A stretch of DNA of 21,812 bases. Source: a virus. Positions within the stretch are counted from its first letter, which is position 1. Every line of letters starts with the position of its first letter. The stretch lies in the IMG/VR virus record IMGVR_UViG_3300009173_000092, positions 1 to 21,812 of that record; one strand, written 5' to 3'. Below, one piece after another: positions 3 to 19,481 of this stretch. The notes under the pieces are model-generated. The model was not told where the DNA came from and ran no database searches. It saw nothing but the letters and a program-made list of their open reading frames with translations. Made by a program: the position numbers and the translations under genes.

Positions 3-581
3 AAGGCCAAGGTACTGCCACCTCTGCGTGAGAGCGTCATAAAATTCGATATGCCAGCGGAAACGCGGGAAATCTACAACGACATGAAAAAGCACATGGT
101 GGTCGAGGACCGTGAGGCCGCGAACCAAGCGGTCAAGTCGGGCGTCCTACGCCAGATCGCGTCTGGCTTCTATTATGGTGACGCTGGACCGCCAACCTCG
201 CTCGACACGGCCAGAGCCGACGCCGCGCTCTATTGGGCCAAGGGTTTGAAGGGTGAGCCGGGGATTATCTTCTATGAATTTGTCGAACAGCTTGTTCAGC
301 TTGAGGAGTTGCCCGACAACATCATGCGGGCGCAGATACAGTCGATGTCACATGGCATCGACGGCCTTCAAAATACATACAATTCGGTGTGTTTTCTGCA
401 ACCACCGTGGTCGAGGGACCAGCAAGAGCAAAGTATCGGCAGGGTCTGGCGGCAGGGGCAAAAAAAGCCCGTCACCGTCACTACCCTGGTCTGTACCGAT
501 ACGCTGGATGAACTGGTCGTGGCGAGGGTGGAAGACCGTGGCAAGTGGATGAAACTTTTTCGTAAGCATTTAGAGAATTGA
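3..581 (+). CDS. SNF2-type DNA helicase, C-terminal part (5' end outside window)
   Basis: The reading frame is already open at base 3, so the protein begins upstream and only the last ~192 residues are here. The diagnostic part is near the end: QEQSIGRVWRQGQKKPVTV, a helicase motif VI of the SNF2/Rad54-like superfamily 2 type, followed by TDTLDELVVARVEDRGKW, matching the usual region after motif VI. Phage SNF2-like helicases are double-stranded DNA translocases placed in replication or recombination modules; the exact role here is inference. It is followed after 53 nt by the ParB-like gene in the same direction. The ATG at 51 is internal, not the real start. High confidence in family, low in specific function. 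Confidence 0.87.
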   Translation, partial: KAKVLPPLRESVIKFDMPAETREIYNDMKKHMVVEDREAANQAVKSGVLRQIASGFYYGDAGPPTSLDTARADAALYWAKGLKGEPGIIFYEFVEQLVQLEELPDNIMRAQIQSMSHGIDGLQNTYNSVCFLQPPWSRDQQEQSIGRVWRQGQKKPVTVTTLVCTDTLDELVVARVEDRGKWMKLFRKHLEN

Positions 582-1630: not shown

Positions 1631-2105
1631 GTTTGTACGCCGTGAGACGGTGCGTAAATGCGCCATCCATCAGAGCATAATGGAACGGGCGTCAGAAGAC
1701 CTTGAACACGCCGGGGCGTTTAACAAAGAAGACATCCTTGAAACCCTCAGCCTCAAGGTAATGGAAGATAGCGTCCGGTGGGACTACATCCGCGATTTTC
1801 TGCAAGATGACCAAGGGTGTGAGTTGGTCCCGGTTGCCGCCAGTTACTTCAAGCGTCATAAACGCGATGAAGAACTGACCAGCCCTGAACGCTTCATTGC
1901 GTCTGGTTACGGAAAAAAGACGGCGGGGTTTGTGTCTGTATCGCTTGAGAACGATCACCTTGTAGTGTGTCGGGTCAAGCAACGTCAGAAGATGGCGAAT
2001 GGTGCAGGTAAGAAGTTCCGCGAATACGCTGAAGCCGTACAAAGTCGGCGGGTTTCATTAGGTGCGCCTGAAACACCTCTGCAAGTCGTAGACGCAAACA
2101 AGTAA
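1623..2105 (+). CDS. Hypothetical protein, 160 aa, coupled to ParB-like gene
   Basis: Starts at ATG 1623, inside the end of the ParB-like gene, with AAGGAG at 1610-1615 as ribosome binding site. I do not recognise the family. The protein is charged; the N-terminal half is mostly predicted helical (RRETVRKCAIHQSIMERA, KEDILETLSLKVMEDS), the middle has short strand-like stretches (TAGFVSVSLENDHLVVCRV) and the tail is basic. No membrane segment or signal peptide. The 8-nt overlap means it is translated with the ParB-like protein, so a joint function is plausible. A strong terminator follows 7 nt after the stop and closes this transcription unit. Confidence 0.7.
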   Translation: MSKFVRRETVRKCAIHQSIMERASEDLEHAGAFNKEDILETLSLKVMEDSVRWDYIRDFLQDDQGCELVPVAASYFKRHKRDEELTSPERFIASGYGKKTAGFVSVSLENDHLVVCRVKQRQKMANGAGKKFREYAEAVQSRRVSLGAPETPLQVVDANK

Positions 2106-2112
2106 ACTAAAG

Positions 2113-2143
2113 CCCCGCGCCTTCTGGCGCAGGGGTTCTTTTT
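2113..2143 (+). terminator. Rho-independent terminator after the ParB operon
   Basis: CCCCGCGCC and GGCGCAGGGG pair with a TTCT loop and one bulged A, followed by TTCTTTTTC. It ends the helicase/ParB unit just before the primase-helicase start at 2155. The primase gene would therefore need read-through or a promoter of its own, and none is obvious in the 12 nt left. Confidence 0.85.
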
Positions 2144-2154
2144 CGGGGGTTATA

Positions 2155-4443
2155 ATGCCAGTACACGCCAAAGAATTTCTCGACACCATTTTCGATGACC
2201 TGAACGATGATGAATACGTCTGTGTGTCCCGTGCCATTGAAAAGAAGGATGGCACGGGCGTCTGGTTCAAGTCGTTTAAACGTGACGCCCGTCAGTTCCG
2301 AAAGTGGAACCCTGAAACCCAGGCCCAGGCGTGGTATTTTTGTGTTTCAACAGTCAGTGGAGAGTTAAATGAAAAAGCTACAATGGTTGGTCGCGGGCGA
2401 AGACATCTCAGAAGATATTATTGTCTCGTCCTGGATGACATTGGAACAAAAGGAACTCCACCACCTGTTGAGCCGTCTTGGAAGATTGAGACTAGCCCTG
2501 GAAACTGGCAGTGGGGATATTTCCTTGACCCTGGCTCAGATTGGGGGCGCTATGAGGCGCTTGCCGAATTTTGCCATCGACAAGGATGGGGTGATGCGGG
2601 CGCAGGGGGAAGTTATCGCCTCATGCGTCTGCCAGGATCAGCCAACCTCAAGCCAGGACGGCAAGGTTTCCGTTCTGTGGTCAACCACTGGGAAAAAGAT
2701 GTTTGGTCCCTGGATGAACTTGCTGACGCCCTAGGCTGTAATTTTTCAGAAATCGAGGTGAAGGATGTCGATGTTAAAGAAAAGACGGGCGGTGCAGCGG
2801 CGATGGACGGCATTGACCCTCTGCTGGATTGGCTCGTTGACGGCGGTCATGTGGTACGCGACACCGGGTTGGAGTGGGTTGATGTTATTTGTCCTTGGGC
2901 TGACAGCCACACCACTGGTGAGAACATTGCTGGATACTCACCGCTAGGCCGTGGGGTAGGAAAATTCGTCCAGACCAGGGCGTTCAACTGTATGCACGAA
3001 CATTGCGTTGACCGCAAGCTGACCAAGTTCCGCGAATGGGCGTCGAAGCTGGGCGCACCTACTGTGTCGGGCTATGACCCGTTGCCGTGGCTTCAAGATA
3101 AGTTCGTCTATGTGTCCACCGGGCAGATGGTCTATGACCTACACCAGCGCCCACTAGGCGGCGTCTGGAAGTGGTCGTTGGCAGACTTCACCAAGGACCA
3201 CCCCGGCAAGATCACACCGCCGGGGCGTGACAACCCCGTCACCATTGCCACCGCCTTTGTCGAGCATGAGAAGACCCGCAAGGTCGTGGACACTTGCTAT
3301 ACGCCTGTGTCGCGTGAGGCTGACACCGGCATTGTCGAGCGCCTTGAGCAAAAGTTCGTCAACACCTATGTCCCGCCGAATTGGGATGAGACGGGTGAGA
3401 CGCCGGAAGTTTTCATCGAACACATGGAGTATGTCATCCCCGACGAATTTGAACGGGAAACCTTCTACAACTGGCTGGCGCATAAAATACAGAACCCCGA
3501 CAAGCGTTCTTACGCCGTCATCATGATCGCGGAAGGCGCGTATGGTACGGGCCGGTCATGGATAGGTCGGCTCATTGACCAGATGCTTCAGGGTCATTGT
3601 AACAGCGCCACGTTGTTGCAGTTAATCGGAAAGGGGACCAGCGCGGAGCAGAACTACAATTCGTGGATGGTCGAGTGCCAATTTTTAATTTGCGAGGAAG
3701 CGAAAGACACGGCGTTGTCCCGCGAAGACTTCTGGCACGGCTACGACACGTTTAAACAGAACGTCGAGCCGGGTGATGCGGGCCGTCCTATCCGCATCAA
3801 CGATAAATATGGCCGCATTTACCACGAGGTCGTCTATCACAACCCCCTGATCTTCACCAACCATGCCGATGCTATGGTCATTGAGGATGGTGACAGACGT
3901 ATTTTCTGTGTCGAGAACCCGACAGAGCGCCGGGATTATCAATACTATGATCGTTTGACGGGTTCGCTCAAGACCCAGGAACCTCGCCGGGTATACTGGT
4001 GGCTGATGCGCCGTGACCTGACCGGGTTTAAACACATCTACCCACCGATGACGCCGTCGAAGGCGCGGATGATTGAGGACACCCGTGCGCCTAGTGACGC
4101 CATAGCCGAATGGATACGCGACAACCACGCGCCCGACATCGTCACCCGTGCCTCATTGAAGGTTGCCATCATCATGGCGGCGCGTGACCTGGACGATGAG
4201 AAAACAATGCGTGAGCCGGGTAATATCACCAAGATATTGTGGCGAAAATTGAAGTCTTTGAGGCCCGATGACACAAAAAACGGAGCGCGTTATATGGTCG
4301 ATGGGAAGCAAACAGAGGTCCGCGCCATCCGAAATCAGACCAAGTGGGTCGATCAGGATGTTAGCCGCGACACCGAAATTGTTGTTAAGGAGTTGGGAAA
4401 GGCGATAATGCCGACGAATGTGGTGGATATTAGAGGAGCATAG
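2155..4443 (+). CDS. Primase-helicase (RepB-like primase domain plus D5/SF3-like helicase)
   Basis: 762 residues. The N-terminal third looks like a RepB-type archaeo-eukaryotic primase: LVLDDIG near residue 92 (acidic metal-site motif), WKIETSPGNWQWGYFL, and YRLMRLPGSANLKPG. Around residues 240-300 a knot with CPW...HT and CMHEHC resembles the zinc/PriCT-like module found in phage primase-helicases. The C-terminal half carries a helicase-type P-loop at residues ~460-468, EGAYGTGRSW, then QFLICEEAKD as Walker B-like and FCVENPTERR as a sensor-type motif; this resembles the DUF5906/D5-like group. The P-loop has R where K is usual. Such proteins unwind and prime at phage or plasmid origins, and repeats typical of an origin begin at its 3' end. 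Ribosome binding site is a weak GGGGG at 2145-2149. Confidence 0.85.
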   Translation: MPVHAKEFLDTIFDDLNDDEYVCVSRAIEKKDGTGVWFKSFKRDARQFRKWNPETQAQAWYFCVSTVSGELNEKATMVGRGRRHLRRYYCLVLDDIGTKGTPPPVEPSWKIETSPGNWQWGYFLDPGSDWGRYEALAEFCHRQGWGDAGAGGSYRLMRLPGSANLKPGRQGFRSVVNHWEKDVWSLDELADALGCNFSEIEVKDVDVKEKTGGAAAMDGIDPLLDWLVDGGHVVRDTGLEWVDVICPWADSHTTGENIAGYSPLGRGVGKFVQTRAFNCMHEHCVDRKLTKFREWASKLGAPTVSGYDPLPWLQDKFVYVSTGQMVYDLHQRPLGGVWKWSLADFTKDHPGKITPPGRDNPVTIATAFVEHEKTRKVVDTCYTPVSREADTGIVERLEQKFVNTYVPPNWDETGETPEVFIEHMEYVIPDEFERETFYNWLAHKIQNPDKRSYAVIMIAEGAYGTGRSWIGRLIDQMLQGHCNSATLLQLIGKGTSAEQNYNSWMVECQFLICEEAKDTALSREDFWHGYDTFKQNVEPGDAGRPIRINDKYGRIYHEVVYHNPLIFTNHADAMVIEDGDRRIFCVENPTERRDYQYYDRLTGSLKTQEPRRVYWWLMRRDLTGFKHIYPPMTPSKARMIEDTRAPSDAIAEWIRDNHAPDIVTRASLKVAIIMAARDLDDEKTMREPGNITKILWRKLKSLRPDDTKNGARYMVDGKQTEVRAIRNQTKWVDQDVSRDTEIVVKELGKAIMPTNVVDIRGA

Positions 4444-4630
4444 AGGAAAATTAGAGGAAAAGTTTTTTGTTTGCTCTAATCAAAAATCCCAGAAGTCTGC
4501 CGTTTTTATACTCTAATAGAGGAATAGAGGAAAATATCTATATAACTTTAGAATATAACAGTAAAATAGCGGTCCTTCTATTTAGACTCCTTAGGAAAAC
4601 TCCTCTATTTGCTCTTTTTCCTCTATTTGC
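4431..4630. repeat. AT-rich repeat region, candidate replication origin (DUE-like)
   Basis: TAGAGGAAAA occurs at 4441-4450, 4452-4461 and 4525-4534, with shortened copies at 4431 (TAGAGGA) and 4517 (TAGAGGAA). The opposite orientation appears as TCCTCTATTTGC at 4601-4612 and 4619-4630. The DNA between (4535-4600) is very AT-rich. No gene fits in 4444-4731. Repeats in both orientations around an AT-rich core, directly downstream of a primase-helicase gene and beside a second repeat family, are typical of an origin with a melting region. This is inference from layout; no experimental homologue is known to me. Confidence 0.55.
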
Positions 4631-4648
4631 GGCGCGGGCATAAAAACA

Positions 4649-4676
4649 CCCGACACAGCGTTTAAACTGTGTCGGG
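4649..4676. terminator. Bidirectional terminator with GTTTAAAC loop
   Basis: CCCGACACAG and CTGTGTCGGG form a perfect 10-bp stem around the loop CGTTTAAA. AAAAA lies before it and TATTTTTAT after it, so it can end transcription from both sides. It sits between the rightward primase gene and the leftward XRE gene, exactly where converging transcripts would meet. Its stem carries the same CCCGACACA word that is repeated at the terS/terL junction. Confidence 0.85.
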
Positions 4677-4687
4677 CTATTTTTATG

Positions 4688-4783
4688 GTCGATCAGGATG
4701 GAAAAGTATTATTTTTTGCCGCGCCCGTCGATCAGGATGGTATTTTCGGAATTTTTCTGTCGATCAGGATGTCGATCAGGATG
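4688..4783. repeat. Iteron-like direct repeats GTCGATCAGGATG
   Basis: Exact copies of the 13-mer lie at 4688-4700, 4727-4739, 4759-4771 and 4771-4783 (the last two share one G). A fifth exact copy is at 4348-4360 inside the primase-helicase gene. Start-to-start distances in the cluster are 39, 32 and 12 bp. Three copies overlap the 3' end of the leftward XRE gene, where they encode ILID twice and supply the stop codon. Direct repeats of this size beside an AT-rich segment resemble iterons bound by an initiator, or operators of the XRE protein; the choice is open. Confidence 0.7.
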
Positions 4784-15317: not shown

Positions 15318-15890
15318 ATGGCTGACGACTATGCCCTCGCATACAAGAAAATCACTGAATTAACTACCGCCACGGGCGTCCCCGCCTCTGGTGATTATAA
15401 TGTCCGTTGGGACGCCAGCACGGGTGGGCCTGTCAAAATTGATGCTACCAGCCTTACGGATACTGTCGGGACGACAGCTACGGCGGATGAATTGAATATG
15501 GCTGCGGATAGCTCGGCTAATACAGAGCTTGTCACAACTACTAATGTACTTACTGCGGCTGAAAGTGGTGCAACCCTTGTCTTCAATACTGCGACAGCGT
15601 TTGTAACTACCTTACCGGCCCTGGCTAAAGGGGTACGTTATAAATTCTATGCGGGTGCTACTGAAGTCACTGGGGGCAATCATACTATTGCTTGTACCAA
15701 CAATGACAATACCATTCATGGGCAATGCACCGTTGCTGGTGCTTTGGTTGCTGCTGCTGATGAAGGTGTTATTAATCTTGTTGCTGATAAATTCCTCCAA
15801 GGTGATTGGATTGAAGTATTCTGTGATGGCGTAGGTTGGTATGTAAGCGGTCAAGTGGTCACTTCTGGTGGTTGCACGTTTACGACTTAA
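15318..15890 (+). CDS. Probable head or tail decoration protein, 190 aa
   Basis: The start is preceded by AAAGGAG and then TTTAAAC, so a GTTTAAAC site fills the gap between ribosome binding site and ATG. The protein is Thr/Ala/Val-rich and mostly beta: KKITELTTATGVPASGDY at the N-terminus, TAAESGATLVFNTATAF in the middle, and YKFYAGATEVTGGNHTIAC, DKFLQGDWIEVFCDGVGWYV near the end. The middle segment looks like those in phage decoration and fibre-base proteins. No enzymatic motif. Its base composition is a little more AT-rich than neighbouring tail genes. Confidence 0.6.
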   Translation: MADDYALAYKKITELTTATGVPASGDYNVRWDASTGGPVKIDATSLTDTVGTTATADELNMAADSSANTELVTTTNVLTAAESGATLVFNTATAFVTTLPALAKGVRYKFYAGATEVTGGNHTIACTNNDNTIHGQCTVAGALVAAADEGVINLVADKFLQGDWIEVFCDGVGWYVSGQVVTSGGCTFTT

Positions 15891-15902: not shown

Positions 15903-16478
15903 ATGACTGATGCGGTAAGCATCTGCAACCTCGCTCTGCAACGGGTAGGCGCTAAGTCTATCTCGTCCTTAGCTGAAGACAGCACCGCTGGCCGGGCTTG
16001 CAACCGGGTTTACGCGCAAGCCCGCGACAGCGAACTCCGCGCTAACTCTTGGGCGTTTGCCCGCGAACGGGTACAGGTTGCAGCAGATAGTACGGACCCG
16101 GTTTTTGGCGCGGCGAAGCGTTATGCTATCCCGTCAGACAGTCTCAGGGTACTCCCGACCAACGGGGTCGATGGCACGGATACCCAGGATGACTTTGAGA
16201 TATACGGACGGTTCATCCACACCGACCACAGTTCGCCTGTTAATCTTGTGTACGTCAAACGTATCACAGACGAAGGCACATTCGACGCCTTGTTCGTGGA
16301 ACTTCTGATTGCCCGTATTGCTATGGATATATCAGAGAAGGTGACACAGTCGAATAAGAAGAAAGAGGAAGCACGTTTTCATTATAAGGAGGTCCAGAAA
16401 GAGGCGCGGCGGGTTAATGCGTTTGAACGTCCACCGCAGAAGCCGCCTACGGACACTTGGGTTACCGCGAGGCTTTAA
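15903..16478 (+). CDS. Tail tubular protein A-like adaptor (T7 gp11-like)
   Basis: 191 residues, usual size. AVSICNLALQRVGAKSISSL at the start is the hallmark, then YAQARDSELRANSWAFARERV, and the middle KRYAIPSDSLRVLPTNG. The C-terminal helix (KKKEEARFHYKEVQKEARRV) is typical too. The protein forms the ring between portal and tail nozzle. CAGGAG lies before the ATG. The next gene starts immediately at its stop codon. Confidence 0.9.
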   Translation: MTDAVSICNLALQRVGAKSISSLAEDSTAGRACNRVYAQARDSELRANSWAFARERVQVAADSTDPVFGAAKRYAIPSDSLRVLPTNGVDGTDTQDDFEIYGRFIHTDHSSPVNLVYVKRITDEGTFDALFVELLIARIAMDISEKVTQSNKKKEEARFHYKEVQKEARRVNAFERPPQKPPTDTWVTARL

Positions 16479-19400
16479 GTGTCAAAAGTCTCAGCAATAC
16501 AGAACAATTTCAACGGTGGGGAAATTTCATCTCTCTTGTATGGTCGGCCTGACGTTGACCGCTACAAGACGGGCCTGAAGACCTGTTTAAACTTCATCCC
16601 TCTGGTGCAGGGTCCGGTTGAACGCCGTCCCGGTACAGTCTTCATCAAGGAAGTTAAAACAAGTTCTCTATCCACTAGGATTGTACGTTTTGAGTTTTCG
16701 ACCACTCAGGCGTATATCCTTGAATTTGGGCATCTCTACGCTCGATTTTATAAAGATAACGGGGCGATTCGTTCATCCACCTCCACCATTTCAGCCGCGA
16801 CAAAAGCCAATCCTTGTGTTGTAACAGACACAGGTCACGGCTATTCAAACGGCGCGGAGATTTTCATAACTGCTGTTGTTGGGATGACGGAGTTGAACGA
16901 CAAGTATTATCTTGTCGCTAGTAAGACCACCAACACCTACGAACTGACGAACATCGACGGGACCAACATCAATAGTTCTTCTTTTACCACCTATTCGTCC
17001 GCTGGTACGTCCGCGCAAACGATTGAGTTAGCCACCACCTACACCACGGCGTCCCTGTTTCAGTTGAAATTTGCACAGAGCGCAGACATCCTTTATGTGA
17101 CGCACCCTGATTTCGAGCCGCGTAAGATTTCGCGCTCTGCGGATACCGTCTGGACGATCACCGACATTACCTTCGCCGATGGCCCGTATTTACGGACGAA
17201 CACCGAAACGACAACAATGGGGCTTTCAGGAACTACCGGGTCCGTCACTGTCACTTCCGCTGACCCCACCACTTCCACGATTTCAGGCGCGACCCAGGCC
17301 GACCCGTGTGTCGTTACAGACACCGGGCATGGCTACAGTAGCGGCGATACGATTTTCATAGCAGCCGTTGTTGGTATGACGGAATTGAACGATATATTTT
17401 ACCATGTCACGGTCATAGACGCTAATAGCTACAGCTTACAAAATACGTCTGACGTTGATATTGATAGCACTGGTTTCACCTCGTATGGGTCCGCTGGTAC
17501 GTCCGCACAACACACCAAAGGTATCAACGATCAAGACGGGTTCAAGTCCACCGATGTCGGGCGGCTCATCCGCTGGCAAGACCCCGCTTCAGAGTGGACG
17601 TATCTGACGATCACGGCGGTTACGAACGCGAAGACTTGCACCGCTTTTATAGACGGCCCTGATGCGTCCGCTACCACCGCTACGGCAGACTGGCGGCTTG
17701 GGGCTTGGTCAGACAACACCAGCTACCCCGGCGCGGTTACGTTCCACCAGAATAGGCTTTGTTTTGCTGGTGGGACAAGTGAGCCGCAACGTGTGGACAT
17801 GAGCCGCACGGGTGACTTTGAGAATTTCGCGCCCACGGACGTTGACGCCACGGTGGTTGACGATCACGCCATTACGAACAATCTATCCGCTGACACCGTC
17901 AACGCTATCCAATGGATTGCAGACGATGAGAAAGGTCTGTTGATTGGGACCGTAGGCGGCGAGTGGGTCTTGCGCCCGTCTGACACAGGCGGCGTCACCA
18001 CCCCCGCCAACGTCCAGAGTAAGCGGTCATCTGCCTACGGTAGCGCCAACATCCAACCCATGCGGGCTGGGCGCGCCATCCTGTTCGTTCAGCGGGCGTT
18101 GCGTAAGGTCCGCGAACTAGCCTACGTCTTTGAGGATGACGGTTTCAGAGCGCCCGACCTGACGCTGGTGTCCGAACATATTAGCCGTTCTGGTATCGTG
18201 GAAATGACGTACCAGACAGAGCCTCAGAGCCTTCTATGGTGTACCCTGACGGACGGTACGTTGATCTGCTTGACCTACGAGCGCGACCAGAAGGTTGTCG
18301 GCTGGTCACGGCACGTTCTAGGGGGGCAGAGTGACGCGGGAACGGCCCAAACCAAGGTCGAGAGCGTTGCCGTCATACCGAACACGAACGGCACGGCTGA
18401 CGAACTTTACATAGTTGTTCAGCGGTACATCAACGGCGCGACCCGCCGCTACATTGAGTATTTGAAACCTCACTGGGAAGAAAGTAACGACCCTGAAGAC
18501 GCCTTCTTTGTCGATTGCGGGTTGAGCCTTGACGTACCGCTGACGATCACCGCCGCAACCGCCGCCGACCCGTGCGTGATTACGTCAGCGTCACACGGCG
18601 TCGATGGCGGCGACGATGTCCGAATTACTTTTGTCAAAGGGATGACGGAGTTGAACGGAGTCGCCTACATTGCGGGCGAGACAGCGACAAACACCTTGGA
18701 GTTGTTCAGCAACACCAAACAGAACACCACCATTTCAGCCGCGACAGCAGCGAACCCCCCAGTTATTACCGCCGCCGCACATGGTCTGTCAGATGGTGAT
18801 GAAATCGGTATATTTGGTGTCGTCGGGATGACCGAGTTGAACGGGAAGGGTTTTACCGTAGCCAACAAAACCTCTGATACTTTTCAATTGTCGGGTATCA
18901 CCGGAGCCGGATACACCTCCTACACCAGCGGGGGCGACCTTCGCCACGCCATCAACAGCACCGCATTCACCACCTACGTCTCTGGCGGCGAACTCAGAGA
19001 GCGGGCCACGGTTCTCTCCGGCCTCGACCACCTTGAAGGTGAGGTTGTGAAGGTGCTAACGGAAGGTTCTACTCACGCCGATAAAACTGTAACATCAGGT
19101 GCAATTACATTGGATAGGTCATCTGCCATAACTCATGTTGGTTTGGCCTATACGTCTGATTTTGAGACACTACGACAGGATGCCGGCGCCCGGGATGGTA
19201 CGAGCCAAGGTAAGTTCATCCGCTTCCACCGCGTCATTATCAGGTTCCTTCAGACCCTTGGCGGGTTCATGGGGCCAGACACAGATAACCTCGACCGGCT
19301 GGTCCTCCGCGAAGGCGGTGACCCGATGGACACCGCCGTTCCGCTGTTCACAGGTGACCACGAGTTAGAGTGGGACGGTGAGTTGTCCACGGACGAACAC

Positions 19401-19481
19401 TTTTTTTACCGGCAGACCGACCCCTTACCTGTTACCATTGAGGCAATCATGCCCCAGATGGAAACACAGGATAGATCATAA
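16479..19481 (+). CDS. Tail tubular protein B-like nozzle protein with four FCCH-like repeats
   Basis: 1000 residues from a GTG at 16479 (GAGG 6 nt upstream). SAIQNNFNGGEISSLLYGRP and LKTCLNFIPLVQGPVERRPG at the start mark the T7 gp12-like nozzle family; TYPGAVTFHQNRLCFAGGT-like SYPGAVTFHQNRLCFAGG at ~415 is another hallmark. Inserted are four copies of a ~75-residue beta domain (residues ~103-180, 267-344, 689-745 and 751-822), each with xPCVVT...GHGxxxGD, VVGMTELND/G and a terminal TxYxSxGT; phage databases call this E1 FCCH-like. The last two are arranged so that copy 4 interrupts copy 3. The nozzle conducts DNA; the repeats may bind sugars or extend the tail. It overlaps the next gene by 1 nt. 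Confidence 0.9.
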   Translation: MSKVSAIQNNFNGGEISSLLYGRPDVDRYKTGLKTCLNFIPLVQGPVERRPGTVFIKEVKTSSLSTRIVRFEFSTTQAYILEFGHLYARFYKDNGAIRSSTSTISAATKANPCVVTDTGHGYSNGAEIFITAVVGMTELNDKYYLVASKTTNTYELTNIDGTNINSSSFTTYSSAGTSAQTIELATTYTTASLFQLKFAQSADILYVTHPDFEPRKISRSADTVWTITDITFADGPYLRTNTETTTMGLSGTTGSVTVTSADPTTSTISGATQADPCVVTDTGHGYSSGDTIFIAAVVGMTELNDIFYHVTVIDANSYSLQNTSDVDIDSTGFTSYGSAGTSAQHTKGINDQDGFKSTDVGRLIRWQDPASEWTYLTITAVTNAKTCTAFIDGPDASATTATADWRLGAWSDNTSYPGAVTFHQNRLCFAGGTSEPQRVDMSRTGDFENFAPTDVDATVVDDHAITNNLSADTVNAIQWIADDEKGLLIGTVGGEWVLRPSDTGGVTTPANVQSKRSSAYGSANIQPMRAGRAILFVQRALRKVRELAYVFEDDGFRAPDLTLVSEHISRSGIVEMTYQTEPQSLLWCTLTDGTLICLTYERDQKVVGWSRHVLGGQSDAGTAQTKVESVAVIPNTNGTADELYIVVQRYINGATRRYIEYLKPHWEESNDPEDAFFVDCGLSLDVPLTITAATAADPCVITSASHGVDGGDDVRITFVKGMTELNGVAYIAGETATNTLELFSNTKQNTTISAATAANPPVITAAAHGLSDGDEIGIFGVVGMTELNGKGFTVANKTSDTFQLSGITGAGYTSYTSGGDLRHAINSTAFTTYVSGGELRERATVLSGLDHLEGEVVKVLTEGSTHADKTVTSGAITLDRSSAITHVGLAYTSDFETLRQDAGARDGTSQGKFIRFHRVIIRFLQTLGGFMGPDTDNLDRLVLREGGDPMDTAVPLFTGDHELEWDGELSTDEHFFYRQTDPLPVTIEAIMPQMETQDRS

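Follow-up and report, generated by a model that had tools for sequence, protein, structure and literature searches.

Evidence for the nesting of one FCCH-like domain within another in the tail nozzle protein of a short-tailed phage

The first catalytic cysteine half-domain (FCCH) of the ubiquitin-activating E1 enzymes is itself an inserted domain. Insertion of a domain into a homologous domain has been described for RNA polymerase: HABAS domains are nested within each other in a recursive manner, as in the type 3 beta' Si3, and the authors place the nested insertions early in evolution (PMC11515920). Domain insertion is common: a census gives 48,551 events of which 65.8% are between different homologous groups (PMC13114784), and by our own subtraction about a third would thus be within a group. 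With respect to phage tails, a study of phage T1 describes residues 16-94 of gp41 as a tail tube domain, referred to as Ig-like, which extends outside the tube (PMC11945409). Among the papers listed by a search of the open-access literature, which most subscription journals fall outside, none described nested FCCH-like domains in phages or phage tails.

Here we report that the tail nozzle protein of a short-tailed phage very probably carries two homologous FCCH-like domains, one of which was inserted into the other at a C-terminal site (referred to as the C-site) to give the order A1-B-A2, where A1 and A2 are the two parts of the outer domain and B is the inner domain. The source record is short-tailed phage DNA of 21812 bases, and this whole stretch is referred to as the window. 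Residues 1-998 of the nozzle open reading frame match phrog_376 (tail protein; E 7.4e-211), a profile generated from 21 nested nozzles detects the solved chain 8ck1_A ("Tail Nozzle") with E 1.3e-120, and the relatives of the nozzle are annotated as tail tubular protein B. The whole-length profile match together with the position after the tail tubular A gene identify the protein as a tail nozzle of the tail tubular B type (Table 1). The FCCH copies of the nozzle are also matched in sequence by phrog_584 (major tail protein), and a 190-residue open reading frame located between the head and tail genes (window positions 15318-15890) gave no match in PHROGs at E 0.01.

Table 1. Positions in the window of the tail genes and of the FCCH-like domains in the nozzle protein
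Feature	Position	Strand	Details
Tail tubular protein A type gene	15903..16478	+	phrog_394, E 3.5e-53; directly upstream of the nozzle open reading frame
Tail nozzle protein (tail tubular protein B type)	16479..19481	+	1000 aa, GTG start, four FCCH-like domains
FCCH-like copy 1, complete, nozzle N site 1	16782..17015	+	Residues 102-179; 80.2 bits, positions 2-76; PF16190 31.4 bits
FCCH-like copy 2, complete, nozzle N site 2	17274..17507	+	Residues 266-343; 67.9 bits, positions 1-76; PF16190 36.4 bits
Nozzle stretch DCGLSLD, left of the C-site	18513..18533	+	Residues 679-685; counterpart in 0-domain, 1-domain and nested relatives
Outer FCCH-like domain, first part (strands 1-5)	18540..18725	+	Residues 688-749; profile positions 2-63
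Inner FCCH-like domain, complete, predicted in the strand 5-6 loop of the outer domain	18726..18950	+	Residues 750-824; PF16190 41.5 bits
Outer FCCH-like domain, last part (strand 6)	18951..19001	+	Residues 825-841; profile positions 62-78
Nozzle stretch TVLSGLDHLEGE, right of the C-site	19008..19043	+	Residues 844-855; counterpart in 0-domain, 1-domain and nested relatives

Using an HMM generated from one-domain relatives only, FCCH-like copies were detected in the nozzle at residues 102-179 and 266-343, as an interrupted copy from residue 688, and at 750-822. At the interrupted copy, residues 688-754 correspond to profile positions 2-63, a full copy follows (750-822), and a spare end at residues 823-840 corresponds to positions 62-78 (6.3 bits). 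A preliminary description of this DNA had reported a third copy that stops early, a complete fourth copy and a spare domain end; this is the arrangement returned by the profile, and the residue numbers given were correct to within 1-2 residues. With the curated cut-off of Pfam E1_FCCH (PF16190) set at 29.5 bits, copies 1, 2 and the inner domain pass (31.4, 36.4 and 41.5 bits), and the outer copy is matched at positions 9-37 of 70 with 20.4 bits, i.e. below the cut-off. The Ube1 profile recognized one FCCH stretch in the nozzle (residues 258-327) with 42.3 bits relative to a cut-off of 750. That Pfam catches part of the outer copy, and this below the cut-off, is a warning that profile tools split nested domains.

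To locate the boundaries of the inner domain we scored excisions and partitions of the region. With the one-domain HMM, removal of residues 750-824 ranked first among 4920 excisions (83.1 bits vs 66.8 with nothing removed). For the nozzle of locus L003, which is 100% identical to that of the window, the same residues also constitute the best of 3485 two-part partitions with either of two HMMs: among cuts placed more than 15 residues from it the best reached 174.0 bits, compared to 201.2 for the two-domain partition, and with the other HMM the values were 134.0 and 155.9 bits. Both parts are complete, with 96.5 bits for A1+A2 (positions 2-77) and 104.7 bits for B (positions 1-77). The margins in other nested cases were 32 (L252), 24 (L310), 44 (L235) and 28 bits (L236), while the differences were 0.3-3.5 bits in four tandem arrays used as controls (L094, L095, L232 and L233). 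Moreover, when the 45 residues following the inner copy were shuffled, our detector of nested copies fired in 0 of 100 trials for each of 11 nested proteins. The result of excision on its own depends on the HMM. With a broad HMM a chimera, consisting of the start of the outer and the end of the inner domain, was favoured for L003 (103.9 vs 101.0 bits unexcised) and also for L252 and L310; for L235 the nested cut was better than the chimera by 0.2 bits and scored below the unexcised sequence (93.5 vs 103.8 bits), and for L236 the nested cut was the best (105.6 vs 90.9 bits). Since the chimera preference makes excision alone not decisive, both parts were scored together instead; this two-part score was adopted after the excision result had been seen and the four tandem arrays were added as controls. 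Nesting is accordingly decided by the two-part score, the fragment model and the relatives, and not by excision alone.

These scores bear on the reading that the region comprises two ordinary tandem FCCH copies, of which the first lost its end and the end of the second was duplicated (X1 - Y1Y2 - Y2'). The ends of the inner and outer domains are similar in sequence, and tandem pairs exist at another nozzle site (L249, L389 and L411), both of which would fit such a history. It requires, however, two events with products that have to fit together again, the outer domain after excision is as long as a one-domain form, and for complete copies placed head to tail the best cut is 27 bits worse than the nested one. 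On this and on the structural and phylogenetic data below we regard a decayed tandem pair as very improbable.

An alignment that combined the window with 42 relatives (43 sequences) was used to predict the structure of residues 680-849, giving a mean pLDDT of 93.0 and a pTM of 0.86. In the window numbering the modelled strands of the outer domain are residues 688-693, 700-703, 713-720, 728-733 and 739-744, with residues 835-841 as the closing strand, and the inner domain is positioned between strand 5 and this last strand. In the model A2 packs on A1 in three dimensions, i.e. the last strand is joined to the body of the outer domain, which argues against the tandem reading. The outer domain aligns to UBA6 (9qiv_B) over model residues 4..166 with 81 aligned residues, Z 13.2 and rmsd 1.3; its Z-scores to UBA6 chains, 13.2 and 14.1, assign it to the FCCH fold on the predicted model. 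The inner domain aligns to UBA6 (7pvn_A) over model residues 66..147 (79 aligned residues, Z 14.0, rmsd 1.5). VIA-align listed 50 solved chains. For 43 of them the aligned part is the inner domain (about 66..147); the other seven cover the model from residues 1-5 to 164-170, i.e. the outer domain, and comprise five E1 chains and two others with Z 7.0 and 6.9. The ranges give the end residues only, and it is the low rmsd together with the number of aligned residues which suggests that the outer alignments skip the inner domain. The preliminary description had proposed one FCCH-like domain nested in another, inserted just before the last strand of the outer copy, and had suggested structure prediction of this region as a check; the scores, the model, in which the split outer and the inner domain each match E1 FCCH, and the relatives (see below) all agree with residues 688-749 plus 825-841 as outer and 750-824 as inner domain.

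The model also bears on whether both domains are present with their last strands swapped, as in recursively inserted HABAS domains. Both ends are alike in sequence, which makes a swap conceivable, and the RNA polymerase study reports swaps in some cases for Si3 (PMC11515920). In the model, which has a pLDDT of 93, the outer domain occupies 4..166 and the inner domain 66..147, without a swap; while a prediction leaves room for a strand swap, we consider such an arrangement highly unlikely. The model of the full-length protein (mean pLDDT 52.7, pTM 0.31) is usable for the FCCH copies only. A link to sugar binding through matches to endosialidase (Z 7.2-8.5) was dropped because the matches are too weak.

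The first scan, which comprised 80 viral loci, contained relatives with a single domain at this position, as the preliminary description had suggested looking for: at the C-site 40 loci are nested, 19 have a single domain, 18 have none and three are unclassified, where three of those scored as none (L024, L078 and L082) end before the site, one scored as nested (L041) ends inside the inner domain, and several loci are near-copies (L003 to L006 share the C-site sequence of the window exactly). The outer domain thus occurs without the inner one at the same place in 19 of the 80 loci, and after joining of its two parts it has the same length as the single form. Five nozzles from GenBank were added, one with a single domain at the C-site (L090; MW202898) and four with none. 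In the nozzles L089 and L091 (HTVC010P and HTVC034P) approximately 100 extra residues are present in a different nozzle loop, after GGRFGNA, compared to HTVC035P and Lederberg. In another relative, Pelagibacter phage Skadi-8 (L096), the C-site loop is filled by other sequence without FCCH match. Considering this phage and the solved nozzle 8ck1_A, the C-site loop looks like a general acceptor site.

The relationship between outer, inner and single domains was studied in a carefully computed tree, for which we chose 45 of 102 domain rows; L041 was not split into outer and inner domain because its contig ends inside the latter. Here the outer copies and the single domains of the C-site, with L090 apart, constitute one clade (support 98/95) and the inner copies a separate clade (95/96). 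This grouping speaks against two tandem copies, and it points to the outer domain as the most likely resident of the C-site. Constraining the outer and inner copies to one clade, as the tandem reading would have it, costs 6.1 log units and is not formally rejected (p-AU 0.086). The single domain of L090 shifts between trees, grouping with the inner copies in one and next to the outer and single copies in the other. A tree of 98 domain rows was searched too shallowly to be used: it was beaten by trees in which outer and single copies (47.0 log units) or outer and inner copies (24.9 log units) were constrained to group. Pairwise identities separate the domains of the window little: relative to four one-domain forms the joined outer domain is 47-52% identical and the inner 38-49%, ranges that omit a fifth form (L051), for which the outer domain gave no match and the inner a short one, probably owing to the choice of a wrong stretch. 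Over the first part of the domain the mean identities were 0.458 for outer-inner within one protein, 0.476 for outer-single and 0.491 for inner-single.

For 60 nozzles, of which 27 are nested, 16 single and 17 without domain, a quick search gave a backbone tree that needs five changes for the three states and in which the nested rows flank the one-domain clade on both sides. Histories other than a single clean insertion into an ancestor with one domain are consequently allowed by these sequences, and at some point the inner domain must have been lost or the region exchanged. In line with the nested rows outside and beside the one-domain clade, the nested form might be ancestral in the nozzle clade of the window, with the one-domain relatives having lost the inner domain by exact deletion. 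The one-domain nozzle L090 falls outside that clade, however, and close relatives in the second nozzle clade (see below) comprise none, single and nested forms, so that we find this order of events possible albeit unlikely. It concerns the order of events and not the nesting, and is compatible with insertion of one FCCH-like domain into another as the best explanation.

Nesting was also detected at a second nozzle site, approximately residues 240-405 of the nozzles of L252, L292, L353 and L389. In this second nozzle class (L252 and kin) the insert is in the strand 4-5 hairpin, the loop names here and below being assigned by mapping the split profile positions onto the modelled strands of the window. 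The open frame is 670 aa in the form without domain (L353 and L347), 756 aa in the single form (L292, L350 and L284), 839 aa in the nested form (L252 and L263) and 841-842 aa in a more distant tandem form (L249, L389 and L411). For L252, identity to four single forms amounts to 76-79% for the joined outer domain, across the junction, and to 54-56% for the inner domain. Single domains that match both halves of the outer domain across the junction are what a tandem pair with a lost and a duplicated end would not give, and they are found here. With this site empty, single, nested or tandem among relatives, the order, source and cost of insertions are open to stepwise study.

Two further cases concern other tail proteins. 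A tail tubular A type protein (phrog_394) in L235 (locus positions 2629-3675) has a nested FCCH-like pair with the insert in the strand 4-5 hairpin. In L236 (locus positions 1681-4698) residues 6-41 match the tail fibre connector profile phrog_677, and residues 399-626 comprise two complete FCCH-like copies inside a third, in one loop just before strand 4; the inserted pair lies between GMTQLNG and YTVANVTANTFEL of the third copy, and another full copy precedes it. The nested cases seen thus show three loops of the fold and four contexts that accept a sibling domain. Given the different loops, sites and proteins, with L235 and L236 represented by one sequence each, we infer that the nested cases are independent events.

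How common the nested form is depends on how loci are sampled. A detector of split-full-split copies fired 94 times among 204 FCCH-bearing open reading frames in the first 326 loci, many firings repeating one contig, and 82 distinct nested regions including the window were identified, 65 at the C-site, 15 at the second nozzle site and one each in L235 and L236; the loci were mostly fetched with nested queries and neither the detector nor the region counts are rates. All 80 regions of the two nozzle classes match the nozzle body of the window with the FCCH copies removed, while L235 and L236 do not. An FCCH consensus was used to fetch another sample, consisting of 19 genome loci plus the 80 best of 567 viral matches. 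Two of its 97 FCCH-bearing open reading frames are nested, both with the C-site split and one (L401) on a contig also present as L210, and under a strict rule two of the 97 have directly adjacent full copies. In this consensus-based sample nested FCCH is a minority form. The nested form was not present in the 19 loci from one scan of the genome contig collection, nor in the 11 of 160 GenBank phage records that were examined by hit ranges. Searching the phage collection with two nested regions gave 25 and 23 matching records with no nested form seen; the longest matches (more than approximately 330 bases) were to MW202473 and MW202478 only, and both have ordinary tandem copies.

Taken together, the data suggest the following scheme. 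The C-terminal nozzle loop between DCGL and LDHLEG would have gained an FCCH-like domain, and a second one would then have entered the strand 5-6 loop of the first, giving A1-B-A2 with A and B homologous; the insertion could have occurred by illegitimate recombination. The placement in loops suggests that the ends of an FCCH-like domain are close together, and such a domain can thus be plugged into a host loop without breaking it. The loops of an FCCH-like domain already present on the tail may in turn serve as further insertion sites. A nested pair would reach further than one domain does, as an arm attached through two chain links and not through one flexible linker, and it might decorate the exterior of the tail and possibly touch the cell surface. 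With the T1 tail tube domain as a guide, we regard an extended side arm of the nozzle, anchored by both chain links, as the most likely role of the pair. More generally, the FCCH-like domains of phage tails could represent a self-nesting plug-in module that has repeatedly entered loops of tail proteins. This joint reading covers three FCCH loops (before strand 4, the strand 4-5 hairpin and the strand 5-6 loop) and, counting both sites of the nozzle together with tail tubular A and the fibre-like protein, at least four contexts, with the tail growing rigid arms by insertion and not merely by end-to-end addition of copies, and we would give it an even chance. The findings suggest that unrelated tail proteins of phages exchange domains in the form of modules inserted into loops.

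With respect to known systems, the similarity to E1_FCCH is evident from the three copies above the PF16190 cut-off and the Z-scores of about 14 to UBA6. Unlike in E1, the FCCH copies of the window are present in a phage tail protein in which we detected no further part of E1, and one of the copies is split by another. In phage T1, residues 15..97 of the tail tube chain 9l0f_G match the inner domain with Z 10.8 (rmsd 2.0 over 80 residues), assuming that entry 9l0f is the structure described in PMC11945409, where the numbering 16-94 corresponds. The gp41 domain lies between parts of the tube domain (PMC11945409), but it is single, not nested, and belongs to a long-tailed phage. The solved nozzle 8ck1_A is of the same family and has approximately 80 residues at the loop of the nested pair, which align weakly or not at all; no paper listed by a search of the open-access literature could be linked to this entry. 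Tandem FCCH arrays (L249, L389, L232 and L233) have several complete copies head to tail, unlike the split copy in the window; L249 and L389 are tandem as judged by hit ranges, and for L232 and L233 the partition scores gave no preference for an internal cut. The closest parallel in architecture, HABAS-in-HABAS in Si3, shares with the phage case a domain inserted in a homologous domain (PMC11515920). It differs in fold and protein and in that strands are swapped in some cases (PMC11515920), while the phage FCCH model is unswapped, and for phage FCCH the none, single and nested forms are present in close relatives. Homologous self-nesting is already known from RNA polymerase.
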